From an uncultured Collinsella sp. (GTDB taxonomy: Bacteria; Actinomycetota; Coriobacteriia; Coriobacteriales; Coriobacteriaceae): 18,557 bases of DNA. The translations under genes and the position numbers were made by a program. The DNA lies in NCBI GenBank assembly GCA_902468045.1, contig CABQXG010000005.1, positions 1 through 18,557 on the forward strand. Reading direction: 5' to 3'. The notes beneath the pieces were generated by a model that was not told the origin of the DNA, made no database searches, and saw only the letters and a program-made list of their open reading frames with translations. Below, in pieces: positions 3,552 to 17,939 of this stretch; position 1 is the stretch's first letter, and every line of letters starts with the position of its first letter.

Positions 3552-5222
3552 ATGTCTCAAGAAACCATCCGCGCGGCCGAGCGTGCCGCGGGACAGGTGA
3601 AGACCATGTCGACGTATGATCCGGACTCCGACCAGCTGCATGAGGAATGCGGCATTTTTGGTGTGTGGGCACCCGATCGCGATGTGGCTCGACTGACGTA
3701 CTTTGGTCTGCGCGCGCTGCAGCATCGCGGCCAGGAATCGGCGGGAATCGCCGTGGGTGATGGCGGCACGGTTATGGTTCGCAAAGACCTGGGACTGCTC
3801 GATCGCGTGTTCTCCAACGCCGACTTGTCGACGCTCTCCGGCCAGCTGGCCGTGGGCCACGTGCGCTATGGCACTGCCGGTGCCAAGAGCTGGGAAGCCT
3901 CGCAGCCGCATCTTTCTACCATCAACAGCGTCATTATCGCGCTCGCGCACAACGGTACCCTCGTCAACACCGACGAGCTGCGCCGCCAGCTGATCGAGCT
4001 GGGCGTGCCGTTCCTTTCCAATTCGGATTCCGAGGTCGCGACTAAGCTTATCGGCTACTTTACTCAGCGTACAGGCCATCTGCGCGAGGGCATTCGCAAG
4101 ACCATGGAGCTCGTGCGCGGCGGCTACGCCATGACGCTCATCAACGAGCAGGCACTCTACGCATTCCGCGATCCGCACGGCATTCGCCCGCTCGTGCTGG
4201 GCAAGCTGGTGGACGAGGGCCTGGACCAGGCCGATGCCGCATCCGTTTCGCAGCTGCCGTCGCAGGACGGCGCCGCGACGGTCGACTCCACCGTCCGTGT
4301 CACGCGCGCCGGCGGCTGGGTCGTTGCTTCCGAGACCTGCGCACTCGACATCGTGGGTGCCGAGTACGTCCGTGACGTCCGTCCCGGCGAGATTTTGCGC
4401 ATCAGCGCCGAGGGTCTGGTATCCGAGCAGGGCGTGCCTGCAGCCGAAGAGCCCGCAAACTGCATCTTTGAGCAGGTCTACTTTGCCCGCCCCGACTCCA
4501 TCATGAACGGCAAGAGCGTCTATGCCTGCCGTTACGACATGGGTCGTCAGCTGGCACACGAGGAGCCCGTCGAGGCCGATCTGGTCATCGGCGTGCCCGA
4601 CTCCGGCCTGCCGCCCGCGGAGGGGTATTCGCACGAGAGCGGTATTCCCTTTGGTGAGGGCCTTATCAAGAACCGCTACGTGGGCCGTACGTTTATCGAG
4701 CCCACGCAGGAGCTGCGCGCCATGGGCGTGCGTATGAAACTCAACCCGCTGCGCGACAACATCGAGGGCAAGCGCCTGGTCGTCATCGACGACTCCATCG
4801 TGCGCGGCACCACCATGGTGCAGCTCGTCAAGATGCTACGCAACGCTGGCGCCAAGGAGATTCATATCCGCATCAACTCGCCCGAGGTCATCTGGCCGTG
4901 CTTCTACGGCATCGATACCGACGTGCAGTCGCAGCTTATCAGCGCCAACAAGACGGTCGATGAGATTTGTGAGTATATCGGCGCCGATTCGCTGGCCTTC
5001 CTTTCGGTCGAGGGCCTGCTTAAGGTCATGCCCAAGGGCGGTTACTGCGATGCGTGCTTTACCGGCCGCTACCCCGTGGCGATTCCCGAGAGTTTTGGCC
5101 GCGACAAGTTCATGGAGGGCTTTAAGCCCCGCAACCTGGACAAGCCGCTGCACTTTGACGACGACGCCGTGGTCGAGAAATACGACGACCGCAGCTGGGA
5201 AGAGGAACACGGCGAGGCCTAA
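3552..5222 (+). CDS. purF: Amidophosphoribosyltransferase
   Basis: PurF makes 5-phosphoribosylamine from PRPP and glutamine, the committed step of purine synthesis. The N-terminal Ntn-hydrolase glutaminase domain starts at Cys33 (EEC-GIFG), which would be exposed by removal of a propeptide. The phosphoribosyltransferase domain carries the PRPP motif VVIDDSIVRGTT near residues 410-422. Single cysteines in ANCIFEQVYFARPDS and IWPCFYGIDT plus the pair in GYCDACFTG fit the 4Fe-4S class known from Bacillus PurF. GAGGGG at 3541-3546 supports the ATG at 3552, giving 556 residues, longer than the usual 470-520. Part of the excess is an insertion near residues 220-250 (DQADAASVSQLPSQDG). An in-frame ATG at 3606 behind AGGTGA would give a more usual 14-residue propeptide, so the start is uncertain. 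Confidence 0.96.
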   Translation: MSQETIRAAERAAGQVKTMSTYDPDSDQLHEECGIFGVWAPDRDVARLTYFGLRALQHRGQESAGIAVGDGGTVMVRKDLGLLDRVFSNADLSTLSGQLAVGHVRYGTAGAKSWEASQPHLSTINSVIIALAHNGTLVNTDELRRQLIELGVPFLSNSDSEVATKLIGYFTQRTGHLREGIRKTMELVRGGYAMTLINEQALYAFRDPHGIRPLVLGKLVDEGLDQADAASVSQLPSQDGAATVDSTVRVTRAGGWVVASETCALDIVGAEYVRDVRPGEILRISAEGLVSEQGVPAAEEPANCIFEQVYFARPDSIMNGKSVYACRYDMGRQLAHEEPVEADLVIGVPDSGLPPAEGYSHESGIPFGEGLIKNRYVGRTFIEPTQELRAMGVRMKLNPLRDNIEGKRLVVIDDSIVRGTTMVQLVKMLRNAGAKEIHIRINSPEVIWPCFYGIDTDVQSQLISANKTVDEICEYIGADSLAFLSVEGLLKVMPKGGYCDACFTGRYPVAIPESFGRDKFMEGFKPRNLDKPLHFDDDAVVEKYDDRSWEEEHGEA

Positions 5223-5260
5223 AACCTGCCAAAAAGGGACAGGTTTATTTTGGTAGGTTT
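5222..5260. repeat. GGGACAG dyad A
   Basis: A 13-base arm AAACCTGCCAAAA (5222-5234) pairs with TTTTGGTAGGTTT (5248-5260), with one G-U pair. The 13-base loop holds AGGGACAGGTTTA. The element begins on the last base of the purF stop codon. It could act as a weak terminator, but its core links it to six other dyads in this window. Confidence 0.75.
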
Positions 5261-5284
5261 TACCTGCTGTTTTGTTGATATGAC

Positions 5285-5309
5285 GGCGCGCGTTGTTATG
5301 GCGCGCGCC
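5285..5309. other. GC-rich hairpin upstream of purM
   Basis: GGCGCGCG (5285-5292) and CGCGCGCC (5302-5309) form an 8-bp stem with a 9-base loop. No U-run follows on the plus strand, so it is not a standard terminator. It lies in the 156-bp gap between purF and purM and could stabilise or attenuate the transcript; the role is not shown by the sequence. Confidence 0.45.
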
Positions 5310-5378
5310 GAAATGAACGCAACTATGAGCACCGTTTGGCGCCCGGGCGGCGGACGGTAGTGGGAGAGGAAGGCTCAG

Positions 5379-6480
5379 ATGAGCGACAGCAAGCATGTGA
5401 CGTATGAGGATGCCGGCGTCGATCCCGCCGAGGGCGGCCGCGCCGTCGACGCTATTAAGCAGATGGTTAAGGACACCAACCGTCCCGAGGTCATCGGCGG
5501 CATCGGTGGCTTTGGTGGCCTGTTCTCGGCTGCCGCGCTTAAGGATATGGAAGACCCGATTCTGATTAGCGGTACCGACGGCGTGGGCACCAAGCTCGTG
5601 CTCGCCCAGATCATGGACCGTCACGAGACGGTGGGCCAGGACCTGGTCGCTATGTGCGTCAACGACATTGGCTTCGGGCGCCGAGCCGCTGTTCTTCCTG
5701 GACTACGTTGCCATCGGCCACATCGAGGCCGAGCACATGGCAAAGATCATCAAGGGTGTGGCCGACGGCTGTAAGCTCGCGGGCTGCGCGCTCGTGGGCG
5801 GCGAGATGGCCGAGCACCCCGGCGTCATGGCTCCTGCCGACTACGACCTTGCCGGATTTACCGTGGGCGTCGTCGACCGTCCCAAGATGCTCGACCCCGC
5901 GAACGTCCGCCCCGGCGACGTGATCCTGGGCCTGCCTTCCACCGGCGTGCACTCCAACGGCTACTCGCTCGTGCGTAAGGTCATTGGCGTCGACGGTATT
6001 AAGCCGGGCACGCCCGAGGCCGCCGCTAAGGCCGAGGAGCTGAGCCGTCCGCTCGAGGAACTCGGCGGCGCATCGCTGGCAGACGCCCTGCTGGCCCCCA
6101 CGCGCATCTATGTCAAGCCGATTCTGGAGCTGCTGCGCGGCGGCGCCAACGTGCACGCCATCGCCCACATCACTGGCGGCGGTATTACCGAGAACCTCAA
6201 CCGCGCGCTCGCCGACGATGTCGACGCCGTGGTCACCCGCAACGGCGCCGAGATGGGTTGGGACGTTCCGCCCGTCATCACCTACGTGTCGCGCCAGGCC
6301 GAGCTCGCGCCCAATGAGGCATGCAAGACCTTCAACATGGGCGTTGGCCTGTGCCTGATCGTCGCCCCCGAGGACGAGGCCGCGGTGACCGAGGCTCTGG
6401 TCGCGCTGGGCGAGAAGCCGTTCCGCGTGGGCGAGTGCGTCGAGGGTTCCGGTAAGGTCGTGTACTCCGATGAGCGCTAA
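5379..6480 (+). pseudogene. purM: Phosphoribosylformylglycinamidine cyclo-ligase, frameshifted
   Basis: PurM (AIR synthetase) closes the imidazole ring using ATP. Its N-terminal part reads in one frame from the ATG at 5379 (behind GGAGAGGAAGG) through [19 protein letters not shown] and CVNDI at about 5669. The rest, beginning [16 protein letters not shown] and running through LVGGEMAEHPG, GLPSTGVHSNGYSLVRK and HITGGGI to the stop at 6480, is in another frame. The family reads VNDI-x-x-x-GAEPL; here only one base remains of the first x codon, so loss of two bases near 5670 fits best and would restore 367 residues. As written, the first frame ends at 5774 after 131 residues. The remaining sequence is intact, so either a very recent mutation or a sequence error is likely. 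The stop overlaps the purN start. Confidence 0.9.
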
Positions 6481-7171
6481 CGAGCAGATGACTGCTGCCG
6501 ATGGCCTGGATTTTGTGCCCTATACCCGTCCGACCGGCACCGATACGGCCGAGCCGCTCAAGATCGGTGTGCTCATCAGCGGTTCGGGTACCAACCTGCA
6601 GGCGCTGATCGATCTGATCGCTGCCGGCAAACTCAACGCTTCGATTGAGCTTGTGGTGTCGAGCCGTCCTTCGGCTAAGGGTTTGCAGCGCGCTGAGCGC
6701 GCGGGCATCCAGACGCTTACGCTGTCCAAGGATGTCTATGCCGACCCCATCGCCGCCGACGAGATCATCGCGCACGAGCTGCTCGAGCGCGGCTGCGAAT
6801 ATGTGGTCATGGCCGGCTACATGCGCATGGTGCACACGCCTCTGCTGGCGGCGTTTCCCAATCGCGTGGTCAACTTGCATCCGGCGCTGCTGCCGAGCTT
6901 TACCGGTGCGCATGCGATTGACGATGCCTTTGCGCGCGGCGTCAAGGTAACTGGCGTGACCGTGCATTTTGCCAACGAGATCTACGACAACGGCCCCATC
7001 ATCGCCCAGCGCGCGCTGGCTGTCGAGGAAGGTTGGGATGTCGACACGCTCGAGGAGCACATCCACGCGATTGAGCACGTGCTGTATCCCGAGGTCGTGC
7101 AGATGCTCGCCGACGGCCGCGTCCACGTGCTGGAGAGCGGCAAGGTCGCAATTGACGCGCCTCGCGGCTAG
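6470..7171 (+). CDS. purN: Phosphoribosylglycinamide formyltransferase
   Basis: PurN transfers a formyl group from 10-formyltetrahydrofolate to GAR. The 233-residue protein has KIGVLISGSGTN at 31-42 (phosphate-binding loop) and the catalytic set Asn135 and His137 (VNLHPALLPSF) and Asp173 (YDNGPIIAQ). All three are shifted by exactly 29 from the Escherichia coli numbering (106, 108, 144). The shift reflects a 30-residue N-terminal extension (MSANEQMTAADG...) not found in the classic enzyme. The ATG at 6470 overlaps the purM stop by 11 bases, suggesting translational coupling. With purF and purM it forms a purine unit closed by the terminator at 7204-7246. Confidence 0.95.
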   Translation: MSANEQMTAADGLDFVPYTRPTGTDTAEPLKIGVLISGSGTNLQALIDLIAAGKLNASIELVVSSRPSAKGLQRAERAGIQTLTLSKDVYADPIAADEIIAHELLERGCEYVVMAGYMRMVHTPLLAAFPNRVVNLHPALLPSFTGAHAIDDAFARGVKVTGVTVHFANEIYDNGPIIAQRALAVEEGWDVDTLEEHIHAIEHVLYPEVVQMLADGRVHVLESGKVAIDAPRG

Positions 7172-7203
7172 CGGCGCACAGTACAATTTAGCCGAGTAGT
7201 CAG

Positions 7204-7246
7204 GGTGGTCATTGGCGCCAAGGCGCGCGTGGCCACCTTTTGTTTT
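7204..7246 (+). terminator. Intrinsic terminator after purN
   Basis: GGTGGTCA (7204-7211) pairs with TGGCCACC (7230-7237), 8 bp with one G-U, followed directly by TTTTGTTTT. It lies 32 bases after the purN stop and ends the purF-purM-purN unit. Confidence 0.85.
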
Positions 7247-7249
7247 GAG

Positions 7250-7305
7250 TAGTCATCGGGGACGGTCTTTAGCGACTAGTCATTCAAGAACGCCTCCGAT
7301 GACTA
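7250..7305. repeat. GGGACAG-type dyad B (diverged core)
   Basis: TAGTCATCGG (7250-7259) pairs perfectly with CCGATGACTA (7296-7305). The pairing continues inward over GGACG/CGCCT with one mismatch and one G-U. The core reads GGGGACGG instead of GGGGACAG. A third copy of the arm heptamer TAGTCAT lies in the middle (7277-7283). The right arm abuts the ribosome binding site of the EIIA gene. Confidence 0.65.
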
Positions 7306-7323
7306 GGAGAGAGAGGTGAGCGC

Positions 7324-7788
7324 ATGGCGGATAACGAAGCGCTGTTTACGCCTGAGCTAGTGTTTTTTGATTGGGAGTGTGCAACGCCGGATGAGGTATT
7401 CGCGCGGCTTGAGGGCGAGCTTGCACCACGTGGCTACATTGCATCCGGTTGGCTCGACGCCGTTCGCACGCGCGAGGATGCCTACCCTACGGGTCTTGCC
7501 ATGCCGGCGGCAAACATTGCCATTCCGCATACCGATCCGGGGTTTGTGGCCAAGCCCTATATCGCGGTGGTGAAGCCCACCGCGCTCGTGACATTTAACG
7601 CTATGGCTGGCATGGGCGCTCCGGTGCCGGCGCAGATCGTCATCAATCTGGGCATCGCCGAGCCGGGCGGCCAGGTCGAGGCCCTGCAGGCGCTCATGAA
7701 CATCTTTATGGACGCCGATGCCGCAGCCGACGTGCTCGGCCAGACCACGTCCCAGGGCATGGTCGACGCCATCCGCCGCCACTTCTAA
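7324..7788 (+). CDS. PTS system EIIA component, galactitol (GatA)-like
   Basis: EIIA proteins pass phosphate from HPr to EIIB of a sugar phosphotransferase system. The 154-residue protein matches the fructose/mannitol EIIA fold in its GatA-like branch: YPTGLAMPAANIAIPHTDP holds the phospho-accepting His69, followed by the KPYIAVVKPTALVTF strand, VIINLGIAEP-like core and a C-terminal helix (QALMNIFMDADAAADVL). GGAGAGAGAGG just upstream supports the ATG at 7324. No EIIB or EIIC gene is within the window, so it is stand-alone here; it may serve a transporter elsewhere or have a regulatory role. It is bracketed by dyads B and C/D, and dyad B occupies its presumed 5' untranslated region. Confidence 0.85.
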   Translation: MADNEALFTPELVFFDWECATPDEVFARLEGELAPRGYIASGWLDAVRTREDAYPTGLAMPAANIAIPHTDPGFVAKPYIAVVKPTALVTFNAMAGMGAPVPAQIVINLGIAEPGGQVEALQALMNIFMDADAAADVLGQTTSQGMVDAIRRHF

Positions 7789-7802
7789 GGTGGGGCTGAG
7801 TC

Positions 7803-7863
7803 GGCACTTGGGGACGTTCCTTTTCTGCCGGCAGTAAGGGACAGTCCCCAAGTGCCAAGTGCC
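7803..7863. repeat. GGGACAG dyad C
   Basis: GGCACTTGGGGAC (7803-7815) pairs perfectly with GTCCCCAAGTGCC (7844-7856). An inner stem follows (TTCCTT with AAGGGA around the palindrome CTGCCGGCAG). The right arm heptamer AAGTGCC is repeated at once (7857-7863). GGGACA lies at 7838-7843. It begins 15 bases after the EIIA stop. Confidence 0.75.
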
Positions 7864-7865
7864 GC

Positions 7866-7917
7866 ATCTGTCCCCTTTGCACCAAAATGGTGCAGATTAA
7901 TCTGTCCCCAATGCACC
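7866..7917. repeat. GGGACAG dyad D, adjoining dyad C
   Basis: ATCTGTCCCC occurs twice (7866-7875 and 7900-7909), each followed by a TGCACC (7878-7883, 7912-7917). One inverted GGTGCA (7889-7894) can pair with either, giving alternative hairpins. GATTAATC (7895-7902) is itself palindromic. It sits 68 bases upstream of the foldase gene. Confidence 0.65.
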
Positions 7918-7985
7918 AAGCGTGCCGCGGGGGCTGCGTTGTGACACAATGGCGTTTGTTCGATTCGTTATGCGAAAGGCCAACT

Positions 7986-9206
7986 ATGGCAAATAAGAAA
8001 AAGAACTCCGAGGCCGCGTCGACGCCCGAGCAGCAGGCCCGCGCTGCCTCCAGCTCTCGCAAGAAGCAGCGCAAGACGTACGTGTCTAAGACCGTCAAGA
8101 TCGTCTTGGTGGTCATCGGCGTGCTGGCGATGCTGCTTTCCGTCTCGGCGATGGCGTGCTCCGGCCTTATGTCGCAGGCCGAGGACACCTCGGGCTACAA
8201 GCTGACCGGCGGTGTTGCTGCAACTATCAACGGCACCAACCTCACCGAGGACACCGTGACCAAGCAGATCATGAGCATGCGCACGTCCTACGGCTACACC
8301 AAGGACAAGGACTGGGCGCAGTATCTGGTTGACAACGACCTGACACCCAAGAAGTATCGCAAGCAGCTCATCGATTCCTACACGCAGCAGATTCTGCTTC
8401 AGCAGGCGCAGAAGGAAAACGGCGTGACGGTGTCGGACGAGGAGGTCGAGAAGGCTTGGAAGGACGCGTGCAAGAGCGCGGGCGGTGCCAAGGCCTTTAA
8501 GAAGACCCTCAAGACCTACGGCTATACCGAGGACACCTACAAGGACTCGCTCAAGGAGAGTCTGGCGCAGCAGAAACTCAAGGATGCCGTCGCGCCCACG
8601 AGCAAGCCCAAGGACAGCGAGATTGTCGATTACATCAACGAGAACCTGTCCAACTACAACGACGCCCGCCGCTCGTCGAACATCCTGATCAAGGTTGATT
8701 CCGACGCTTCCGATGAGGACAAGGCTGCTGCCAAGGCCAAGGCGCAGGAGTGCCTGGACAAGATCAACTCCGGTGAGCTGAGCTTTGAGGACGCCGTTGA
8801 GCAGTACTCCGAGGACACCGGTTCCAAGGAGAAGAAGGGCGATGTGGGCTGGGATAAGCTCACCACCTTCGTCGACAGCTACCAGACGGCGCTCGAGGGG
8901 CTCAACAAGGGCGACGTGAGCGAAGTCGTCGAGTCGACCTATGGTTACCACATCATCAAGTGCACCGACTACTTCCATGTCGATAATCAGGTCGATGACA
9001 TCAACCAGGTGCCCAAGGCCATCAAGAAGTACGTCTCCAACGTGGTGAAGACGCAGGCGGCCAGTACTGCATACAGCGAGTGGCTGGAGCAGTACAAGAA
9101 GGACGCCGACATTACCGTCAACCCCATGCCCAAGGACGTACCCTATAACGTGAGTCTGAAGGGCGTCACCAAGAGCTCGACCGACGATTCGTCGACGACT
9201 GAGTAA
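7986..9206 (+). CDS. PrsA/SurA-like peptidyl-prolyl isomerase foldase, membrane anchored
   Basis: Proteins of this type help secreted proteins fold outside the membrane. The 406-residue product has a basic N-terminus (about 1-36), a hydrophobic segment (about 37-60) ending in SAMAC, a weak lipobox-like end, then a SurA-N-type helical domain (INGTNLTEDTVTKQIM, YTQQILLQQA). A parvulin domain follows at about 226-330 (SSNILIKV, SFEDAVEQYSED, KKGDVGW, STYGYHIIK). The tail is Ser/Thr-rich. GAAAGG precedes the ATG at 7986. A longer frame from 7887 would run through dyad D and is rejected. Whether Cys is lipidated or the helix stays as an anchor cannot be decided. It is followed 54 bases later by the YqeY-like gene. 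Confidence 0.87.
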   Translation: MANKKKNSEAASTPEQQARAASSSRKKQRKTYVSKTVKIVLVVIGVLAMLLSVSAMACSGLMSQAEDTSGYKLTGGVAATINGTNLTEDTVTKQIMSMRTSYGYTKDKDWAQYLVDNDLTPKKYRKQLIDSYTQQILLQQAQKENGVTVSDEEVEKAWKDACKSAGGAKAFKKTLKTYGYTEDTYKDSLKESLAQQKLKDAVAPTSKPKDSEIVDYINENLSNYNDARRSSNILIKVDSDASDEDKAAAKAKAQECLDKINSGELSFEDAVEQYSEDTGSKEKKGDVGWDKLTTFVDSYQTALEGLNKGDVSEVVESTYGYHIIKCTDYFHVDNQVDDINQVPKAIKKYVSNVVKTQAASTAYSEWLEQYKKDADITVNPMPKDVPYNVSLKGVTKSSTDDSSTTE

Positions 9207-9260
9207 TCATGGGGCGGCGCTCGCTCGAGTACTGCCCACGCTATTAGAGAGGATTTGCAG

Positions 9261-9704
9261 ATGACCAACGAAGAGCTGCAGAAGGAAATGATCGCGGCCA
9301 TGAAGGCCAAGGACAAGGTTCGCCTGTCTATCATTCGCCAGGTCAAGGCCGAGGTGAAGAATATCGAGGTTAACGAGCGCCGCGACGTGACCGAGGAAGA
9401 CGTCAACAGCATGATCAAGCGTCTGATCAAGCAGACGAGCGAGACGCTGGAGATGTCCATCAAGGCCGGCACCGACCAAGAGCGTACCGACAACCTGACC
9501 GAGCAGGTCAAGATTCTGGAGAGCCTGCTGCCCGCGCAGGTTTCGGGCGAGGAGCTCGAGGCTCTGATCGAGCAAGTCATCGCCGAGCTGGGTGCCACGT
9601 CCAAGAAACAGATGGGCCAGGTCATGGGGGCACTCGGCAAGGCCACCGGCGGCAACTTCGACAAGCCGGCAGCGGCAAAGATCGTCGGAGCAAAGCTTGC
9701 GTAA
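9261..9704 (+). CDS. yqeY: YqeY/GatB-tail family protein
   Basis: The 147-residue protein matches the YqeY family, which resembles the C-terminal tRNA-binding domain of GatB but stands alone; its exact job is unsettled. Family marks are the start LQKEMIAAMKAKDKVRLSII, the middle IKQTSETLEMSIKAGTD, ILESLLPAQVS and the end SKKQMGQVMGALGKATGGNFD followed by a run of small residues and AKIVGAKL. AGAGAGGA at 9246-9253 supports the ATG at 9261; a TTG six bases upstream is not needed. It ends before a strong terminator at 9734-9765. Confidence 0.92.
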   Translation: MTNEELQKEMIAAMKAKDKVRLSIIRQVKAEVKNIEVNERRDVTEEDVNSMIKRLIKQTSETLEMSIKAGTDQERTDNLTEQVKILESLLPAQVSGEELEALIEQVIAELGATSKKQMGQVMGALGKATGGNFDKPAAAKIVGAKLA

Positions 9705-9733
9705 GGGCCGAGCGGTACATAGTTGATGTTGAG

Positions 9734-9765
9734 GGGGCGTGGCCGTCATGGTCGCGCCCCTTTTT
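9734..9765 (+). terminator. Intrinsic terminator after yqeY
   Basis: GGGGCG (9734-9739) pairs with CGCCCC (9755-9760), with further inner GCC/GGT pairing, and is followed by TTTTT. It lies 30 bases after the yqeY stop. Confidence 0.85.
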
Positions 9766-9776
9766 GCTGGGCTGGG

Positions 9777-9847
9777 CACTCATTGGGGACAGACTTAAAT
9801 GAGTGCCCAATGAGCAGGTACTCATTTAAGTCTGTCCCCAATGAGTG
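9777..9847. repeat. GGGACAG dyad E, perfect 28-base inverted repeat
   Basis: Bases 9777-9804 and 9820-9847 are exact reverse complements, with a 15-base loop. Each arm holds GGGGACAGACTTA or its complement. ACTCATT or its complement AATGAGT sits at both ends of each arm, and AATGAG recurs in the loop. It follows directly on the yqeY terminator and precedes the amino acid importer operon. Confidence 0.9.
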
Positions 9848-9910
9848 GGTTAAAGGTTGCGGGTTCTTTACGGGAATGTAGTGCGGGCTGCGGAAACGCG
9901 GTTCTTTCCG

Positions 9911-9916
9911 TACAAT
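9911..9916 (+). promoter_or_regulatory. Candidate -10 box for the amino acid importer operon
   Basis: TACAAT lies 36 bases upstream of the ATPase ATG. No clear -35 is seen at 17 bp (CTGCGG). The region just upstream holds GCGGAAA (9890-9896) and TTTCCG (9905-9910), which can pair and might be an operator. Confidence 0.4.
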
Positions 9917-9951
9917 AGTTCAACTCGTGTAAACGCAGGGAAGGGACATTC

Positions 9952-10683
9952 ATGGCAGACATGATCGAGATCAAGCATCTCAACAAGTACTTTGGCGACC
10001 TGCATGTGCTCAAAGATATCAATCTCACCGTCAAGCGCGGCGAGAAGCTCGTAATGATCGGGCCTTCCGGCTCGGGTAAGTCGACGCTCATCCGTTGCGT
10101 CGATTATCTGGAGGAGCCCACGTCGGGCGAGGTCGTCATCGACGGTACGCCGCTCACCAAAAAGAATCACCTGGAGATGGCTCGCAAGTATAGTTCCATG
10201 GTGTTTCAGCAGTTCAACCTGTATCCCAACATGACGGTGCTCGGCAACCTGACGCTCGCGCCCATCAAGCTGCAAAAGAAGAGCAAGGAGGAGGCGACCG
10301 AGGTCGCCATCGCCGCGCTCAAGCGCGTCGGCATGGCGCATAAGGCCGGCGAGTATCCGCAGAACCTCTCGGGCGGTCAGCAGCAGCGCATCGCCATCGC
10401 CCGTGCCCTGTGCACCAAGCAGCCCATCATCCTGTTTGACGAGCCGACCTCGGCGCTCGACCCCGAGATGGTCCAGGAGGTTTTGGACGTTATGATTGAG
10501 CTCGCGCAGGAGGATATCACCATGATCTGCGTGACGCACGAGATGGGCTTTGCGCGCCAGGTGGCCGACCGCGTCATCTTTATGGAGGACGGCCGCATTC
10601 TGGAGGAGGGCACGCCCGAGCACTTCTTCGATAACCCCGAGAACCCGCGCTGCCGCGAGTTCCTGTCCAAGATTTTGCACTAG
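9952..10683 (+). CDS. Polar amino acid ABC transporter, ATP-binding protein (GlnQ-like)
   Basis: This cytoplasmic ATPase drives the importer encoded by the next three genes. Its 243 residues include Walker [10 protein letters not shown] (37-45), the Q-loop [14 protein letters not shown], the signature [15 protein letters not shown] (near 139-153), Walker [14 protein letters not shown] (near 160-172) and the H-loop VTHEMGFA. The size and the [10 protein letters not shown] segment fit the glutamine/polar amino acid subfamily. AGGGAAGGG at 9937-9945 supports the ATG at 9952. The stop is 8 bases before the binding-protein ATG, so the four genes form one operon. Confidence 0.95.
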
Positions 10684-10691
10684 GCGCGGTG

Positions 10692-11567
10692 ATGGACATG
10701 ACGGATATGACGAGGGCGGCCGTATCGCGCCGCCACTTTTTGCAGCTGGCGGGCGTCGGCATGCTTGCGCTGACGGGGACCGCGCTTACCGGTTGCGGCA
10801 ACTCCACCAGCGGCGAGGGTTCCGACAAGGGGTCCAAGCTTGCGGCCATTAAGTCGCGTGGCCATCTGAATGCCGGCGTTAAGAAGGACGTTCCCGGCTA
10901 CGGCTATTACGACACCGCTAAGGGTCGCTTTGAGGGCATGGAGGTCGATTTGTGCTACCAGATCGCCGCTGCCGTCTTTGGTGTGAGCTACAAGGATGCC
11001 CGTGCCCAGGAGCTTGTAGAGTTTACCGATGTAACGCCCAAGACGCGCGGCCCGCTGATCGATAACGGCCAACTCGACGTGGTCGCGGCGACCTACACCA
11101 TCACCGACGAGCGCAAAAAGAGCTGGGATTTCTCGACGCCGTACCGCACCGACTACGTGGGACTCATGGTCAAGAAGCGTTCGGGCTTTACCTCGATTGA
11201 GGATCTGGACGGCAAGATTATCGGCGTGAGCCAGGGTGCTACCACACAGGGCCTCATCGAGCAGATGATCAAGGACAACGGCTTTAACTGCAAGCCCGAG
11301 TTTAGGGCCTTTAGCGGCTACCCCATCATCAAGAGTTCTCTCGACGCCGGCAATATCGACGTCTTTGCCATGGACCGCTCCACGCTGGCCGGTTACATGA
11401 ACGAGACCGTTGAGCTGTTGCAGCCCGAGGTCAAGTTTGGCGAGCAGGGCTACGGCGTGGCGACCAAGAAGGGCTGCGACCTTTCGGCCGTGGTCGATCA
11501 GGTGATTTGCGATCGCCTGGCCGACGGCTGGCTCGACCAAGAGGTCAAGACCTGGGGTCTTGTATAG
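10692..11567 (+). CDS. Amino acid ABC transporter substrate-binding lipoprotein (SBP family 3), Tat-type signal
   Basis: The family 3 binding protein captures amino acids outside the membrane for the importer. The 291-residue product opens with SRRHFLQL (twin Arg at 13-14), a hydrophobic stretch and the lipobox LTGC with Cys35, so it looks like a Tat-exported lipoprotein. Family marks include IKSRGHLNAGVKKDVPGYGY, GRFEGMEVDLCYQIA, VEFTDVTPKTRGPLIDNGQLDVVAATYTI-type core and DFSTPY, then the SQGATTQ phosphate/ligand loop. Its ligand cannot be read from sequence with confidence; glutamate, glutamine or aspartate are usual. ATGs at 10692, 10698 and 10707 are all in frame and none has a strong ribosome binding site, so coupling to the ATPase stop is likely. 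Confidence 0.92.
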   Translation: MDMTDMTRAAVSRRHFLQLAGVGMLALTGTALTGCGNSTSGEGSDKGSKLAAIKSRGHLNAGVKKDVPGYGYYDTAKGRFEGMEVDLCYQIAAAVFGVSYKDARAQELVEFTDVTPKTRGPLIDNGQLDVVAATYTITDERKKSWDFSTPYRTDYVGLMVKKRSGFTSIEDLDGKIIGVSQGATTQGLIEQMIKDNGFNCKPEFRAFSGYPIIKSSLDAGNIDVFAMDRSTLAGYMNETVELLQPEVKFGEQGYGVATKKGCDLSAVVDQVICDRLADGWLDQEVKTWGLV

Positions 11568-11592
11568 GCGCATCGTCCAAGGAAGGAATCAA

Positions 11593-12339
11593 ATGCTCGA
11601 AGGATTATTTGACGCCGACCGTTGGTCGACGACATTTCAAAACATGGGGCCCTTCTGGGAGGGCTTTGGCGTGACGCTGCAAGTGGTCGTTGCCGGTCTG
11701 CTGCTGTCGCTGGTGCTGGGCACGCTGCTGGGCGTGTTCTCTACCACTCGCACGCGCGTGCTGCGCGCCATAAGCCGCGTGTACGTGGAGTTTTACCAGA
11801 ACACCCCGTTGCCCGTACAAGTGCTCTTTATGTACATGGCCGGTCCGCAGTTTTTGCAGGCCATAACCGGTGCCGACCAGCCGGTGCGCATCGCGCCGTT
11901 CGTGCTGGGCTTCTTGGGCGTGGGTCTGTATCACGCGGCCTACATTTCGGAGGTTATCCGCACTGGTATCGAGGCGGTTCCGCGTGGTCAGATGGAGGCG
12001 GCCCAGAGCCAGGGCTTCACCCGCGCCCAGGCGTACTGGTACATCGTGCTGCCCCAGACATTCAAGATCATTCTGCCGCCGCTGTGTAACCAGGCGCTCA
12101 ACCTGGTCAAGAATACGTCGGTTCTGGCGCTTGTGGCCGGCGGCGACCTTATGTACCGTTCCGACAACTTTGTGAGTCTGTACGGTTACCTGCAGGGATA
12201 CATCGTCTGCTGCCTTATGTACTTCATCATCTGCTTTCCGCTCGCCATGCTGGTGCAGTGGCTCGAGCGCCGCTCCAAGGAGCGTCCGCGCGGCGTGAGC
12301 CTGGCCGAGCTGGGGCTCGACAACGTAGAGGAGGCCTAG
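11593..12339 (+). CDS. Amino acid ABC transporter permease (HisM/GlnP family), first subunit
   Basis: This 248-residue integral membrane protein forms half of the transport channel. It has an N-terminal helix region (GVTLQVVVAGLLLSLVLG), YVEFYQNTPLPVQVLFMYM, which is typical of the polar amino acid permease family, and the cytoplasmic EAA loop EAAQSQGFTRAQAYWYIVLP that docks to the ATPase. GGAAGGAA at 11581-11588 supports the ATG at 11593; an earlier frame start at 11560 would overlap the binding-protein gene. The next permease starts 3 bases after its stop. Confidence 0.93.
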   Translation: MLEGLFDADRWSTTFQNMGPFWEGFGVTLQVVVAGLLLSLVLGTLLGVFSTTRTRVLRAISRVYVEFYQNTPLPVQVLFMYMAGPQFLQAITGADQPVRIAPFVLGFLGVGLYHAAYISEVIRTGIEAVPRGQMEAAQSQGFTRAQAYWYIVLPQTFKIILPPLCNQALNLVKNTSVLALVAGGDLMYRSDNFVSLYGYLQGYIVCCLMYFIICFPLAMLVQWLERRSKERPRGVSLAELGLDNVEEA

Positions 12340-12342
12340 CGC

Positions 12343-12981
12343 ATGGAAATCTTCAACGCGACCAACCTGCTCTACATTTGGGGCGGCTTTGTTAAGACAA
12401 TCGAGATCTCGGCGCTGTCGATCTTTTTCTCGCTCATCTTTGGCACGGTGCTGGCGCTCGTTAAGAGCTATGCGCCCCGCCCGTTCCGTATTTTGGTGAG
12501 CGCCTATATCGAACTGTTCCGTTGCACGCCAAACCTGCTGTGGATCCTGTTTATTTACTTTACGGTGCAGGGTTTGGACATTGTGATTTCGACCATCGCC
12601 TTTACGCTGTTTACCAGCGCTGTTATGGCCGAGATTGTGCGCGGCGGCCTCAACTCGATTCCGCGCGGCCAGTTTGAGGCAGCGCAGAGCCAGGGCTTCG
12701 GCTTCTTTGCCACCATGCGCTACATCATTCTGCCGCAGACGTTTAAGACGATCATTCCGGCGCTGTTTAGCCAGTGCACGACCGTCATCAAGGACAGCTC
12801 GTATCTTTCGGGCATTAACGTGGCCGAGCTCATGTACACGGCAAACGTCGTGATGGCCCACGCGATCGACCTGTCGCAGGTGCTTATGCTCTACGGCCTG
12901 GTGTTTGCGATGTACTTTGTACTCAACTTTGGTATCTCGCTGCTGGTCCGCGCATATCAGAGGCGAATGGTGGCAGCGTAG
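12343..12981 (+). CDS. Amino acid ABC transporter permease, second subunit
   Basis: The 212-residue partner permease has GFVKTIEISALSIFFSLIFG, YIELFRCTPNLLWILFIYF and the EAA loop EAAQSQGFGFFATMRYIILP. Two different permeases indicate a heterodimeric channel. GAGGAGG at 12329-12335, inside the end of the previous gene, supports the ATG at 12343. The stop is followed at once by dyad F (12983-13013), which may limit read-through to the next gene. Confidence 0.93.
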   Translation: MEIFNATNLLYIWGGFVKTIEISALSIFFSLIFGTVLALVKSYAPRPFRILVSAYIELFRCTPNLLWILFIYFTVQGLDIVISTIAFTLFTSAVMAEIVRGGLNSIPRGQFEAAQSQGFGFFATMRYIILPQTFKTIIPALFSQCTTVIKDSSYLSGINVAELMYTANVVMAHAIDLSQVLMLYGLVFAMYFVLNFGISLLVRAYQRRMVAA

Positions 12982-12982
12982 A

Positions 12983-13013
12983 ATGTGGCAAAGGGACAGC
13001 CCCTTTGTCACAT
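12983..13013. repeat. GGGACAG dyad F
   Basis: ATGTGGCAAAGGG (12983-12995) pairs with CCCTTTGTCACAT (13001-13013) over 13 bp with one G-U. The loop ACAGC completes the GGGACAG core. It fills the gap between the second permease stop and the ribosome binding site of the next gene (13016-13023). Confidence 0.8.
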
Positions 13014-13029
13014 AGAGAAAGGAATCGCG

Positions 13030-13653
13030 ATGAGCGATCTGGAGAATAAGAAGAGTCCTGTGGTCATTACCATCGCGCGCGACTTTGGCGCCGAGGGCCA
13101 CGAGATTGGCCGCATGCTTGCCGACGAGTTGGGGATTCCGCTGTACGATAACGAGCTGCTGGTACGTGCGTCGCTGCGCGCGGGCGAGTCGCTCGATAAG
13201 ATGGCCGCCTATGATGAGCGTCTGGCCGTGGAGAACATGGCGTTTCTGCCCGACCGCTACGATGCGCGTTCGTACTCGGATAAGTTGTTCCAAAAGATGA
13301 GCCAGGTGATTTTGGATCTGGGCGAGACCGAGAGTTGCATTATCGAAGGCCGTCTGTCCGATTACCTGCTGCGCAACAACCCCAACCACATTGCCGTGTT
13401 GGTGACCGCACCCTTTGAGGACCGCGTCGAGATTGTGCGCAAGAAGCGTGGCCTTAACAAAAAGAAGGGCGCCAAGCTGGTCAAACAGCAGCAGAAGGCG
13501 CGCGAGGCGTTCTATAAGCGCTACAGTGCCGGAAAGTGGAAGATGACGAGCGGCAAGGACATCGTCGTCAACCGCGCCAAGCTGGGCCGCGAGGGTTGTA
13601 AAGACGTTATCGCCGCTGCCTACCGCTACAAGGTGGCGCAGCTCGAAGGCTAA
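13030..13653 (+). CDS. Cytidylate-kinase-like family protein
   Basis: The 207-residue protein matches the cytidylate-kinase-like P-loop family whose members are common in Firmicutes and Actinobacteria and mostly lack a tested substrate. It starts VVITIARDFGAEGHEIGRML, a variant P-loop (GAEGHEIG), followed by ADELGIPLYDNELL and a later CIIEGRLSDYLL strand, and ends with a basic LID-like region (RKKRGLNKKKGAKLVKQQQK). AGAAAGGA at 13016-13023 supports the ATG at 13030; a frame start at 12985 would read through dyad F. The gene is bracketed by dyads F and G. It may be co-transcribed with the amino acid importer. Confidence 0.85.
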   Translation: MSDLENKKSPVVITIARDFGAEGHEIGRMLADELGIPLYDNELLVRASLRAGESLDKMAAYDERLAVENMAFLPDRYDARSYSDKLFQKMSQVILDLGETESCIIEGRLSDYLLRNNPNHIAVLVTAPFEDRVEIVRKKRGLNKKKGAKLVKQQQKAREAFYKRYSAGKWKMTSGKDIVVNRAKLGREGCKDVIAAAYRYKVAQLEG

Positions 13654-13708
13654 CCGACCAAAACCATCACAAAGGTGCCTGTCCCCATCGTGGTGGTTGG
13701 GTGGTCGG
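13654..13708. repeat. GGGACAG dyad G
   Basis: CCGACCA (13654-13660) pairs with TGGTCGG (13702-13708). Inside it AACCATCAC (13662-13670) pairs with GTGGTGGTT (13690-13698) with one wobble. The loop holds AAAGGTGCCTGTCCCC. The outer arm begins at the base after the cytidylate-kinase-like stop codon. Confidence 0.75.
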
Positions 13709-13715
13709 CATAGAA

Positions 13716-13751
13716 AAAGTCCCCGCCGGGCGTGTGCTCGACGGGGACTTT
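13716..13751. terminator. Bidirectional intrinsic terminator
   Basis: AAAGTCCCCG (13716-13725) pairs perfectly with CGGGGACTTT (13742-13751), 16-base loop, with A- and T-rich edges suiting both strands. It separates the cytidylate-kinase-like gene (plus) from the convergent nfnB (minus). Confidence 0.85.
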
Positions 13752-13779
13752 GCCGTTTGGTGGCTAGCGCTGTAGGTGA

Positions 13780-15189
13780 TTACTCGCCCAGCAGGCTCTT
13801 GGTGATGGAAGCGGCGGCCTTCTTGCCGGCACCCATCGCCAGAATGACCGTAGCGGCACCGGTGACGATGTCGCCGCCAGCCCAGATGCGGGGATCGGTG
13901 GTCTGGCCGGTCTCCTCGTCGGCAACGATGTAGCCCCACTTGTTGAGCTCCATCTTGCCGCCGATCTTCTTTGCGAAGGGGTTGGCGTTGGTGCCGATAG
14001 CCGAGATTGCGACGTCGCAGGGAATCTCCTCGATGGCGCCCTCGATGGGCACCGGGCGACGACGGCCGGACTCGTCAGGCTCGCCGAGCTCCATCTTCTG
14101 GACCTTGACGGCGCACACGGAGCCGTCCTCGCCAGCGACAAACTCGAGCGGGGAGACGAGCGGCAGAACCTCGACGCCCTCGGCCTTAGCATGGTGCAGC
14201 TCGGCGCGACGGCAGGGCATCTCGTCCTCGGTACGACGGTAGGCGATGATAGCGTGCTCGGCGCCCAGACGCTTGGCGGTACGGACGGCGTCCATAGCCA
14301 CGTTGCCGCCACCAAAGACGACGACGTTCTTGCCGTGCTTGGTGGGGGTGTCGTACTCGGGGAACTTGTTGGCCTTCATCAGGTTCACGCGGGTGAGGTA
14401 CTCGTTCGCGAAGAAGACGTTGGGCAGGTTCTCGCCGGGGACGTTGAGGAACTTGGGCAGGCCAGCGCCGGTCGCCACATAGATGGCGTCGAAGCCCTGC
14501 TCGAACAGCTCCTCGGCCGTGGCCATGTTGCCCACGACGGAGTTGTACTCAAACTTGACGCCCATGTCCTCCAGGCCGTCAATCTCGCGCTTGACGACTG
14601 CCTTGGGCAGACGGAACTCGGGGATGCCGTAGACCAGCACGCCGCCGCCGGTAAAGAAGGCCTCGAAGACGGTGACGTCAAAGCCGTTGCGGGCGAGCTC
14701 GCCGGCGCAGGTGATGCCGGACGGGCCGGAACCGACGACGGCGACCTTCTTGCCGTTCTTGGGAGCCATCTTGGGCGTGGAGGCGAGCTCGGGGCGGTCA
14801 CCCAGGAAGCGCTCGAGCTGGCCGATGGCCACGGGCTCGGACTTCTTACCACGGATGCACTTACCCTCGCACTGGTTCTCCTGCGGGCAGACGCGACCGC
14901 AGATGGCGGGAAGCATGGAGTCCTCGCGGATGGTATCGAGAGCGCCGCCGAAGTCCTTCGCGCGGATCTGCTCGATAAAGCGGGGGATGTTGATGTTGAC
15001 GGGGCAGCCCTCAACACAGAACGGCTTCTTGCAGTTGAGGCAGCGCTCGGCCTCGGCCAGCGCCATCTCCTCGGTGAAGCCCTTGTCGACGGGGCGGAAG
15101 TCGCAGGCGCGCTCGGCAGCCGGCTCCTCGTTATCGGGGGTGCGGGGCGACTTCATATCGGCAACGAAACGACCGTTAACTAGTGGCAT
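13780..15189 (-). CDS. nfnB: NADPH-dependent glutamate synthase small-chain-like flavoprotein; probable NfnB subunit
   Basis: With NfnA this subunit forms NADH-dependent ferredoxin:NADP+ oxidoreductase, a cytoplasmic electron-bifurcating flavoenzyme; the same family is often labelled GltA/GltD. The 469-residue protein has two N-terminal Fe-S cysteine sets, C50-C53-C58-C62 (CLNCKKPFCVEGC) and C97-C101-C107-C111 (CGRVCPQENQCEGKC). An FAD site follows (VAVVGSGPSGITCAGELA), then an NADPH site (VVVFGGGNVAMDAVRTAKRL) and a final FAD-contact strand (IWAGGDIVTGAATVILAMGAGKK, read across). The start at 15189 overlaps the nfnA end by 10 bases. The pairing with nfnA, and the lack of a large glutamate synthase subunit nearby, favour Nfn over glutamate synthase. 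Confidence 0.88.
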   Translation of the reverse strand: MPLVNGRFVADMKSPRTPDNEEPAAERACDFRPVDKGFTEEMALAEAERCLNCKKPFCVEGCPVNINIPRFIEQIRAKDFGGALDTIREDSMLPAICGRVCPQENQCEGKCIRGKKSEPVAIGQLERFLGDRPELASTPKMAPKNGKKVAVVGSGPSGITCAGELARNGFDVTVFEAFFTGGGVLVYGIPEFRLPKAVVKREIDGLEDMGVKFEYNSVVGNMATAEELFEQGFDAIYVATGAGLPKFLNVPGENLPNVFFANEYLTRVNLMKANKFPEYDTPTKHGKNVVVFGGGNVAMDAVRTAKRLGAEHAIIAYRRTEDEMPCRRAELHHAKAEGVEVLPLVSPLEFVAGEDGSVCAVKVQKMELGEPDESGRRRPVPIEGAIEEIPCDVAISAIGTNANPFAKKIGGKMELNKWGYIVADEETGQTTDPRIWAGGDIVTGAATVILAMGAGKKAAASITKSLLGE

Positions 15190-16179: not shown

Positions 16180-16220
16180 TTTATCCACTTCCTTGATTGT
16201 CATTTTCATTGCAACAGCCT
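16180..16220 (-). promoter_or_regulatory. Promoter-like segment facing nfnA, homologous to 17780-17819
   Basis: Read on the minus strand the segment starts AGGCTGTTGC, passes ATGAAA and ends GGATAAA. It aligns with the plus-strand segment 17780-17819 with one gap and roughly three-quarters of the bases identical by eye. The aligned boxes are ATGAAA and GATAAA, 18 bp apart. A separate inverted pair, GGCTGTTG (16163-16170) and CAACAGCC (16212-16219), surrounds it. Confidence 0.45.
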
Positions 16221-16257
16221 CAGGACTCAGCGCAACGCGTTGCGCTGAGTCCTGAGG
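16218..16257. repeat. 40-bp perfect palindrome at the IS left end
   Basis: The left half 16218-16237 is the exact reverse complement of 16238-16257, with no loop. Its centre is CGCAACGCGTTGCG. It contains the 15-base IS terminal sequence GGACTCAGCGCAACG followed head-to-head by its own complement. Confidence 0.95.
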
Positions 16258-17631
16258 CGCGAATCCGGGTAGGCAACCCCAGAGGGGCCGGAATCCCCCG
16301 GCCCTCGATGGAGGGAGGCCGGCATGTCCAGACCGAGACCGTCCGGAAGGTCGTACGGGAGGCTCACGAGGCACGAGAGGAACGCGATCGAGAGAATGCT
16401 CGACCGCAACCGAAGCGCCCGCGAGATCGCCGCGGAGCTCGGCAGGTCGCCCTCGACCGTGACCAGGGAGGTGGCGGCGCACCGCTACGTCACCGCGCCG
16501 CGCTCGCGCTACGGCGAGCCCGCGCCCGAGGACCTCTCGGGGGCCTGCCCCAGGCTCGCCGCATGGCCGAGGTGCTGCAACGGCTGCTCGCACAGGAGGG
16601 GCTACGGCTGCTCGAGGAGGCCCAGGGTGTTCTACAGCGCCAGGAGGGCGCAGGAGACGGCCGACGCAGAGCTCTCGTCGAGCAGGTCCGGGATAGACGA
16701 GACCGAGGAGGGCGCCGCCGCCAAGCTCGAGGCCATCAGGGGCGGTCTCGCGCGCGGGCTCTCCCCGCAGCAGATAGCGGCGACGACCCCCGGCCTCAGC
16801 GCCTCCACCGTATACAGGTGGGTGGACGCCGGCTACGACGGCATGACGAACATGGAGCTCAGGCGCAAGGTCGGCTACAGGCCGAGGTCGCACCGGGCCC
16901 CGAAGAGGGCGACGTCCCACTCGGCCCGCAGGTCGCACGCGGCGTTCCTCGCGCTCGGCGAGGACGCCTGCGCCGCGGCCTGGGAGATGGACACCGTCGA
17001 GGGCGCCGGGTGCGACTCCGCCAGGCTCCTCACGCTTCTGCACCGCCCGAGCCGCTTCCAGCTGGCGCTGCCGCTGCCGGACGGCGCGTGCGCCTCGGTC
17101 CTCGCGGCGCTCTCGTCCCTGCGCGGGGTCCTCGGCGAGGACGGCGCGAGGCGCGCCTTCGGCGCCGTGCTCACCGACAACGGGAGCGAGTTCGCCGACG
17201 AGGACGCCATCGCGGCGCTGCTCGGCGAGCGCGACGGCGAGACCAGGCTCTTCTACTGCGACCCCCGGCAGAGCCAGCAGAAGGGCGCGTGCGAGAAGAA
17301 CCACGTGGAGATCAGGAAGCTGCTGCCCAAGGGCGCCGGGGTCAGGTTCGACCGGCTGACGGCGGCGGACTGCGCGCTGCTCATGTCGCAGGTGAACTCC
17401 GAGCCGAGGGGGGCGCTCGGGTTCCTGACGCCGGCGCGCGTGCTGAGGATGGCCCTCGGGGAGGACGCCTCCGCCCTTATGGACGCGTTCGGGATAGAGG
17501 AGCTGGCGCCCCGCGAGCTCGACCTCACGCCCGGCTGCATAGACAGGGCCAGGGCCGCGAGGGGCGAGGGCCCGCTGGCGGGATAGCCGGCGGGCCGGGA
17601 CATGGGCCGGAGGGCCCGTTGCGCTGAGTCC
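16223..17631 (+). mobile_element. IS30-family insertion sequence
   Basis: The element is bounded by 15-base inverted repeats: GGACTCAGCGCAACG at 16223-16237 and CGTTGCGCTGAGTCC at 17617-17631. It holds one transposase gene. No target-site duplication is obvious: the flanks read CTCA on the left and GGAA on the right. A second, inverted copy of the end (16238-16252) abuts the left terminus, so the exact left boundary and history are uncertain. A GGGCCGG/CCGGCCC hairpin at 16285-16304 lies upstream of the transposase and may block incoming translation or transcription. Base and codon use differ from the neighbours. Confidence 0.85.
16324..17586 (+). CDS. IS30-family DDE transposase
   Basis: The 420-residue protein catalyses movement of the element. 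An N-terminal helix-turn-helix (about 14-52, RLTRHERNAIERMLDRNRSA then REIAAELGRSPSTVTREV) matches IS30. A cysteine-rich insert follows (CPRLAAWPRCCNGC...GYGC), a zinc-ribbon-like feature found in one IS30 branch. The catalytic residues are Asp223 (WEMDTVEG), Asp285 (LTDNGSEF) and Glu324 (CEKNHVEIRKLLPKG), with Arg331 seven residues after the Glu as in IS30. It is longer than IS30 itself (383). AGGGAGG precedes the ATG at 16324. Arginine is often AGG and isoleucine sometimes ATA, unlike the host genes, which favour CGC/CGT and ATC/ATT; this points to recent transfer. The frame is intact. Confidence 0.94.
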   Translation: MSRPRPSGRSYGRLTRHERNAIERMLDRNRSAREIAAELGRSPSTVTREVAAHRYVTAPRSRYGEPAPEDLSGACPRLAAWPRCCNGCSHRRGYGCSRRPRVFYSARRAQETADAELSSSRSGIDETEEGAAAKLEAIRGGLARGLSPQQIAATTPGLSASTVYRWVDAGYDGMTNMELRRKVGYRPRSHRAPKRATSHSARRSHAAFLALGEDACAAAWEMDTVEGAGCDSARLLTLLHRPSRFQLALPLPDGACASVLAALSSLRGVLGEDGARRAFGAVLTDNGSEFADEDAIAALLGERDGETRLFYCDPRQSQQKGACEKNHVEIRKLLPKGAGVRFDRLTAADCALLMSQVNSEPRGALGFLTPARVLRMALGEDASALMDAFGIEELAPRELDLTPGCIDRARAARGEGPLAG

Positions 17632-17939
17632 GGAACGGCTGCGCGGCGGGCTGGCGGAGCATGTCGCGCAGCGTGGGGACACGGGCCTCCACAGCCCTCC
17701 ATCTGCGGAAACGAGGCGATGGCCAGATGCCGGGGGCTATTTCCGCGTTGCGCTAGCTGCGGAAACGCGGGGTCCGTTCAGGCTGTTGCGTTGAGATTGA
17801 AAATCAACCAGCGGATAAATCTCCATACCCCTCTACAAAAACCTGTACTTTTGCGACTGCGCCTAGCTGCGAGCGAGAAGCCTGTTCTTAACGCCCCTGC
17901 ATCCGTGTGAGTCGCGGAGGCAAGAAAAGGGGGCGAGAG
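17632..17939. other. Non-coding gap with GCGGAAA repeats and a leader
   Basis: This gap holds no gene I can support. It contains GCGGAAA (17705-17711), its complement TTTCCGC (17740-17746) and GCGGAAA again (17759-17765), allowing two mutually exclusive hairpins. An overlapping CCGCGTT/AACGCGG pair lies at 17743-17749 and 17764-17770. The 15-mer GCTGCGGAAACGCGG at 17756-17770 also occurs at 9887-9901, upstream of the amino acid importer. A promoter candidate lies at 17791-17819, and about 120 bases of leader precede the antiterminator gene. Confidence 0.6.
17791..17819 (+). promoter_or_regulatory. Promoter candidate for the NusG-like gene
   Basis: TTGAGA (17791-17796) and GATAAA (17814-17819) are separated by exactly 17 bases, a good sigma-70 spacing; the -35 matches 5 of 6 and the -10 matches 4 of 6 of the consensus. 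The 40-base segment containing it has a diverged, inverted counterpart at 16180-16220. Confidence 0.55.

Follow-up and report, generated by a model that had tools for sequence, protein, structure and literature searches.

Dyads with a common GGGAC[AG] tip in a Collinsella genome are probably families of REP-like hairpins tied to RAYT transposases

An 18,557-nt stretch of an uncultured Collinsella sp. (contig CABQXG010000005.1; the whole of it is called the window here) carries a series of intergenic dyads that share the short core GGGACAG and have unrelated arms. What kind of element keeps its core while its arms vary? A first-pass annotation suggested that each element uses its first arm to make its second, either by a single-strand HUH/RAYT-type reaction (RAYT, REP-associated tyrosine transposase; REP, repetitive extragenic palindrome) or by template switching in replication. 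Our analysis gives a different answer. The dyads probably represent several families of non-autonomous hairpins, similar to REPs and to their inverted doublets (REPINs), of a RAYT system of the TIRYT (RAYT-like gene within terminal inverted repeats, TIRs) or TnpA-Y1 subclass 2.1 kind.

At least seven dyads had been annotated, and all seven are present at the coordinates given for them, between presumed genes. The first touches the stop codon of purF, and several lie directly 3' of stop codons. They are as follows, with the families to which they belong.

5220..5262, forward strand: family F element; left arm 5220-5234, core GGGACA 5236-5241, axis 5241, right arm 5248-5262
7250..7305, forward strand: family B inverted dimer, REPIN-like; copy 1 at 7250-7278 with core at 7259, copy 2 inverted and degenerate
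7803..7863, forward strand: family C compound element; cores at 7811 (GGGACG) and 7838 (GGGACA), arms GGCACTT/AAGTGCC spanning both
7866..7917, reverse strand: family I pair; minus-strand cores at 7869 and 7903, arms TGGTGCA
9773..9849, forward strand: family E inverted dimer; cores at 9786 (+) and 9833 (-), arms CACTCATT
12983..13013, forward strand: family D element; near-perfect palindrome ATGTGGCAAA-GGGACAGCCCC-TTTGTCACAT, stem p 0.002
13654..13708, reverse strand: family A element; minus-strand core at 13680, loop inverted relative to some relatives, stem p 0.066

The window contains nine copies of GGGACAG against 2.77 expected (standard deviation 1.62), a number attained in none of 200 shuffles. 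One copy lies inside purF, at 3590, and the remaining ones are in gaps between open frames taken for genes. The core described as fixed is hence enriched, but the part common to the dyads is GGGAC[AG] and not strictly GGGACAG. We then compared the arms at 10 core sites with dinucleotide-shuffled flanks. As had been proposed, mean complementarity exceeds that of the shuffles (7.45 against 4.40), with p < 0.05 at five sites (5236, 7259, 9786, 9833, and 12993) and p of 0.056 at 7903 and 0.066 at 13680; it is, however, not significant at 7811, 7838, and 7869, all of which are parts of compound elements. Specifically, the family F element has a stem score of 12.5 against 5.45 in shuffles, the family E stems at 9786 and 9833 have p of 0.002 and 0.012, and the second stem of the family I pair, at 7869, has p of 0.15. 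In the gaps of a 400-kb sample of the nearest genome available, set by a simple home-made gene caller, 14 of 130 GGGAC[AG] sites reach an arm score of at least 8, compared with 97 of 3253 sites for 55 permuted hexamers. The p-values throughout ignore relatedness.

The arms had been described as changing from element to element. We searched three Collinsella relatives (G001, G040, and G024) for left arm plus core with at most three mismatches, using for families B and D a family consensus that is two letters off the window copy. All seven dyads belong to families with 6-41 matches per genome. In the order of the three genomes, family A has 32, 37, and 30 matches, family B 25, 41, and 30, family C 23, 26, and 28, family E 15, 21, and 9, and family F 26, 36, and 29. 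Family D gives 27, 27, and 31 strand matches, which correspond to fewer places, since a single palindromic site often matches on either strand. The weakest family is I, with 7, 6, and 7 matches, many of them at two or three mismatches and some without the GGGAC core. Control searches returned zero for every family except A, the reversed pattern of which matched 1, 1, and 0 times. Across the eight genomes searched for it, family A has 28-40 matches each; families B and E have a few matches in common, and recurring arms are also found among the best sites of the 400-kb sample. Since like arms occur at many places per genome, each dyad represents one of the many sites of a family that has arms of its own. 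The arms are therefore a family trait, differing between families and not from element to element. As in REPs, the stem is conserved within a family, and the copies are numerous and intergenic, the position being taken from the window and the G001 sample. In G040, seven neighbouring pairs among 39 of the 41 family B places are exactly 35 bp apart on opposite strands, so that family B has the two inverted REPs at fixed spacing that make up a REPIN. Family C has one pair at 35 bp and three at 27 bp among 26 places.

Within the families, we inspected how the two arms change. A filter keeping copies with both arms near consensus, and also removing mirror palindrome matches of family D, retained 24/28 copies of A, 12/31 of D, 19/19 of F, 48/80 of B, and 26/54 of E; family C, with 45 matches, was omitted. 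Changes in families A and F are mostly one-sided: both arms are changed at 3 cells in A (0.79 expected, p 0.04) and at 2 in F (1.6 expected, p 0.49). Paired changes are in excess in B (25 against 7.2), D (5 against 0.53), and E (16 against 2.8), the figures for B and E being subject to the caveat that the search for each of these families collects copies of the other. Without the filter, and with the right arm unused in the search, left-arm changes are accompanied by a compensating right base in 4/26 cases in A, 1/23 in F, 14/29 in D, 54/125 in B, 54/90 in E, and 27/72 in C. Copy number and the mostly one-sided change in A and F lead us to reject element-by-element arm copying as the source of the dyads, and the idea that the second arm is built from the first in each element is thus not sustained.

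If not copied arm by arm, which system do the hairpins belong to? The annotation had advised looking for a Y1/RAYT gene. Y1 transposase genes (PF01797) are present in 26 of the 39 relatives searched and fall into two kinds, a short IS200-type and a longer RAYT-type, and a RAYT profile has matches in 37 of 43 Collinsella genomes, fragments among them. PF01797 scores above cut-off in all seven RAYTs scanned. The RAYT-type proteins bear NHxH and Y[IV]xxNP, and across 22 aligned sequences the N, H, H, Y, N, and P residues of these motifs do not vary. Their open frames, with Y---NP, are mostly 237-355 aa long (one broken frame has 206), and some of the RAYT-bearing genomes hold separate IS200-type genes of 167-204 aa. 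The C-terminal tail is conserved in the alignment and helical in the model; Pfam helix-turn-helix (HTH) matches to it are below curated cut-offs in five of the seven proteins and absent in two. The model of one protein (locus L025) has a mean pLDDT (predicted local distance difference test) of 89.7, and its nearest structure is 4er8 (E 2.1e-5, target template-modelling score 0.71), the E. coli RAYT in complex with a REP hairpin.

Many RAYT genes in Collinsella and its order are flanked by core hairpins, with equal arms on both sides of one gene and other arms beside other RAYTs. Family E brackets the RAYTs at L025, L071, L073, L083, L084, L111, L112, and L218, with at least two copies per side at L025, L111, and L112. 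Family F is found on both sides of the RAYT genes at L085, L086, and L222. The part of the earlier proposal that named a HUH/RAYT-type process is thus supported by position.

We then scanned species genomes with the RAYT alignment and retained the best 80 of 544 confirmed loci, ranked by likeness to one Collinsella RAYT. The 80 loci come from Coriobacteriia and Bacillota, one record being labelled Desulfaltia, and five of them have one short flank. GGGAC[AG] faces inward on both sides within 500 bp at 62/80 loci and outward on both sides at 14/80; it occurs on at least one side at 71/80. The nearest element on each side gave 132 elements, 83 of which have a stem score of at least 6. Stems formed within an element are longer than those formed with the right half from another locus (median 6 against 4, Mann-Whitney U p 5e-37, relatedness uncorrected), and scores of at least 8 are reached in 25% and 1.1%, respectively. 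At 36/62 loci, at least 8 of 10 bases are identical between the upstream and downstream arms, compared with 1.3% between loci. Loci with more similar RAYTs also tend to have more similar arms (Mantel r 0.33, p 0.001, computed on 43 of the 80). The HTH tail was considered as the reader of the stem and is unsupported in that role, the HUH part giving r 0.33 and the C-terminal part 0.23 (partial 0.28 against 0.12).

Some flanks carry further copies. Downstream of the RAYT gene at L178, cores run outward-facing at a spacing of about 50 bp, and downstream of that at L177 they run inward-facing at irregular short spacing. At L169, a 52-bp element palindrome lies on both flanks of the gene.

The 83 elements with a stem score of at least 6 were used to describe the hairpin. 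In 67 of them, the dyad axis coincides with the R of GGGACR (35/205 in the cross control), and the loop is 11, 13, 15, 17, or 19 long in 68. Distances 1-5 from the axis make up the tip, in which GGGAC faces a 3' half that resembles GTYCY, G-T pairs being frequent; own and cross comparisons give equal pairing here. At distances 8-14, pairing is 56-74% within the own element but 24-38% across loci, and it falls to background by about 17 from the axis. The element is a quasi-palindromic hairpin of about 30 nt, the tip of which is general and the stem its own. GT[AG]G, the mark of the canonical REP foot, is at the foot of 3/83 elements, compared with 2/83 for a control motif.

The link to RAYTs comes from position and from covariation with the gene, and on this basis we infer RAYT activity on the hairpins, including binding, cleavage, and mobility. 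In the reading that we favour, one strand would fold with a GGGACR-GTYCY tip, present in all families and rich in G-T pairs, above a stem base of about 7-9 bp that each family would have as its own and that, beside a flanked RAYT gene, would be particular to that RAYT. The HUH/Y1 transposase would bind the folded single strand during replication, reading both tip and stem, and would cleave it and copy or move hairpins, alone or in pairs, into intergenic DNA. New families could arise when tip-bearing ends gain a new stem together with a RAYT accepting that stem. Copies would later decay, and polymerase template switching in the hairpin may occasionally homogenise the arms or invert the loop. 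Two other TnpA-REP groups are reported to have coevolved with their REPs and to read them differently (Corneloup et al., 2021), which makes reading of tip and stem plausible.

Several observations weigh against this reading. Because elements were sought by their core, the search itself makes them share its six letters, and the weight of the core hence rests on the 62/80 loci; in the gap test, a few permuted hexamers equal the core. Families A, B, C, D, and I have no convincing cognate RAYT among 146 loci scanned, which include some but not all RAYT places of the profile search. Loose matches near RAYTs, allowing two mismatches at most and numbering 2 in A, 3 in B, 15 in D, and 28 in I, are largely from other species or are family E elements. 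In a set of 63 loci from Collinsella and its order, which includes fragments and two non-RAYT loci, hairpins scoring at least 5.5 are on both sides at 17, on one side at 16, and on neither at 30, a threshold that misses some family E elements, for example at L084. One RAYT type that is frequent in this clade lacks a core hairpin of that score at all eight loci examined (L018, L019, L021, L022, L023, L211, L219, and L230). No clean pair of empty and filled insertion sites was seen in orthologous gaps (1-38 sequences each) or at two family A loci; the search for insertion boundaries yielded unit gains and losses at 7788 and a family A copy beside or in a family F remnant.

The flank-less RAYT type is a candidate domesticated or trans-acting RAYT. 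It is 311-348 aa long, as grouped by score, and is held by 12 genomes, with no element of the present plan at the loci examined; a different GGGACA-bearing palindrome lies downstream of it at L018 and L021. The tip might accordingly be the recognition site of one such resident RAYT acting in trans on hairpins whatever their stem. Many orphan families would then be served by one domesticated transposase, with the tip as licence and a stem that need only pair. This would fit the occurrence of that RAYT type in 12 genomes and the five families without a RAYT of their own, and we consider it possible but rather unlikely.

The orthologous gaps illustrate how single hairpins behave. At 12983, 12 of the 23 collected sequences, the window included, hold the element. 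At 7788, units are gained and lost between orthologues, and the number of units in the family C element differs between them. Arm changes at the same locus, which the annotation had expected to be concerted, look so at 7250 and are one-sided at 5222. The 20-base arms of the 7250 dimer exist in two versions, one alike at 19-20 of 20 bases in L035, L041, L044, and L047, with a change private to L041 present in both arms, and the other, present in the window and L039, with agreement at 17 of 20. The arms of other dimers agree at 14, 15, 14, 15, 18, and 14 of 20. The family A loop at 13654 is forward in L039, L041, and L042 and inverted in the window, L031, L045, L046, and L048, while L032, L033, and L036 have two opposed copies, the left one in L033 being without the core. 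At another family A locus (L063, G001:C1:1500812), the loop is inverted in 4 of the 10 genomes that have family A there and forward in 6, with the same flanks on both sides in 8 of the 10; ten more fetched loci hold family F material instead. On a tree, element state and loop orientation are scattered over the flanks, which recombine, and loop flips and other events are therefore uncountable.

Could template switching, as in quasi-palindrome correction, account for the dyads altogether, with GGGACAG provoking the synthesis of the second arm from the first and no transposase needed? Template switching between inverted repeats is reported to leave homogenised arms and inverted spacers as its signature (PMC8604942, PMC8794818). 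The near-identical 7250 arms in two versions, the L041 change shared by both arms, and the inverted loops at the L063 locus amid the same flanks resemble these marks. The process would, however, act on existing copies and leaves multicopy families unexplained: like arms are found at many unrelated places, a copy number that contradicts such an origin, changes in families A and F mostly affect a single arm, and hairpins of this plan bracket RAYT genes. The loop inversion at 13654 is weakened as proof, as deletion between opposed copies, both of which are kept in L032, L033, and L036, leaves either orientation, and recombining flanks prevent the flips from being counted. Template switching as the origin of the dyads is hence improbable. 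The earlier suggestion fits at single loci, namely the 7250 arms and the family A loop, where template switching may be a secondary process.

Two further explanations dispense with a transposase. The dyads may be kept for an RNA hairpin, as terminators or attenuators, being intergenic, hairpin-forming, and in several cases just past stop codons. One of 12 terminator-like sites at window positions 5000-14000 (7.4 expected in shuffles) overlaps an element, at 5251-5269, whereas the other 11 are off the dyads, in a scan of loops of 3-8 only that is blind to most of these hairpins. As termination needs no common primary sequence at the tip, and inward-facing elements at both ends of RAYT genes and inverted pairs at fixed spacing also speak against RNA features, we find this account very hard to maintain. 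Otherwise, a regulator may recognise GGGACAG/CTGTCCC in duplex DNA, the dyads being its operators. The core of family D is indeed palindromic (GGGACAGTCCC), but those of the other families have no dyad symmetry, the arms vary by family, and the elements occur at RAYT ends; this explanation is extremely improbable.

We compared the hairpins with known systems. TIRYTs are RAYT-like Y1 genes bracketed by TIRs, some of which share GGGGWSAS and some of which are self-complementary; some TIRs are dispersed as dimers or families, and the elements are also called TIRtrons (Di Nocera et al., 2013, PMC3733652). Most listed TIRYTs have been placed in TnpA-Y1 subclass 2.1, near which automatic and manual searches are reported to have yielded no REP-like sequences (Quentin et al., 2018, PMC6006769). 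The present RAYTs and core resemble TIRYT/subclass 2.1 in sequence motifs, length, and core: NHxH, Y[IV]xxNP, a length from about 240 aa, and a C-terminal tail are those described for subclass 2.1 in PMC6006769, and flanking inverted repeats of the GGGGWSAS type are found at 62/80 loci, with the common variant GGGGACGG off GGGGWSAS at one position. Different from that report, the core flanks those 62 genes on both sides and stems scoring 6 or more are formed by 83/132 nearest elements. The TIRs of TIRYTs are described in PMC3733652 as long and partly unrelated to each other, whereas the elements here have one hairpin plan with a shared tip, a fixed axis, and a lineage-specific stem. Actinobacteria and Collinsella are unmentioned in the main text of that paper, and the present hairpins are from Coriobacteriia and Bacillota. 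Like canonical REPs and REPINs, they are intergenic, multicopy, single or in inverted pairs, and tied to RAYTs; canonical elements have GTAG at the 5' foot, and here it is the tip of the hairpin that carries the fixed motif. CGTC or TGTC occurs in the complement of the core, as in CGTC-tagged REPs, in which CGTC is an unpaired end tag and for which PMC3733652 reports no transposase; here the motif is the tip, and a transposase is adjacent. In IS200/IS605, TnpA is short, about 150 aa, and the RAYT-type frames here are longer. In titles of the partly covered literature on RAYT/REPIN, TIRYT, Collinsella repeats, and GGGGACAG palindromes, a hairpin with shared tip and variable stem is not described; in a Thiomargarita genome paper, GGGGACAG is within a primer.

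The region and its relatives hold a few other features. Right after GGGGACAG inside a family A hairpin at L279 and L280 (G012 and G040), there is an insertion sequence with ends TGAACTG...CAGTTCA, which from its translated frames we take to be IS3-like, and CAG is apparently duplicated. The same left junction, at family A places ending GGGGACAGTGAA, is found at least four times in G040, at least twice in G010, and at least once in G018, as if the insertion sequence targets the family A hairpin tip. The window's purM (5379-6480) is split by a frameshift, possibly a sequencing error; a single 373-codon frame is present in 19 of 21 relatives examined, and purM was not found in the regions examined of the other two. 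A transposase gene at 16324-17586, presumably IS30-like, matches HTH_38 above cut-off and rve below cut-off. Beside it lies a perfect 40-bp palindrome (16218-16257), part of whose sequence appears by eye again near 17618, within the region 16218-17640.

A hairpin with a shared tip and a variable stem seems to be the missing description for TIRYT/subclass 2.1. Transposases of this kind, reported without REP partners, would gain a defined candidate substrate in the form of a common tip and a lineage-specific stem, and the recognition code of these RAYTs becomes directly testable. The position of the fixed motif would explain why searches for a 5' GTAG foot miss such hairpins. Coriobacteriia and Bacillota would join the bacteria with populations of REPIN-like elements. 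At single loci, template switching also seems to reshape hairpins of this kind.

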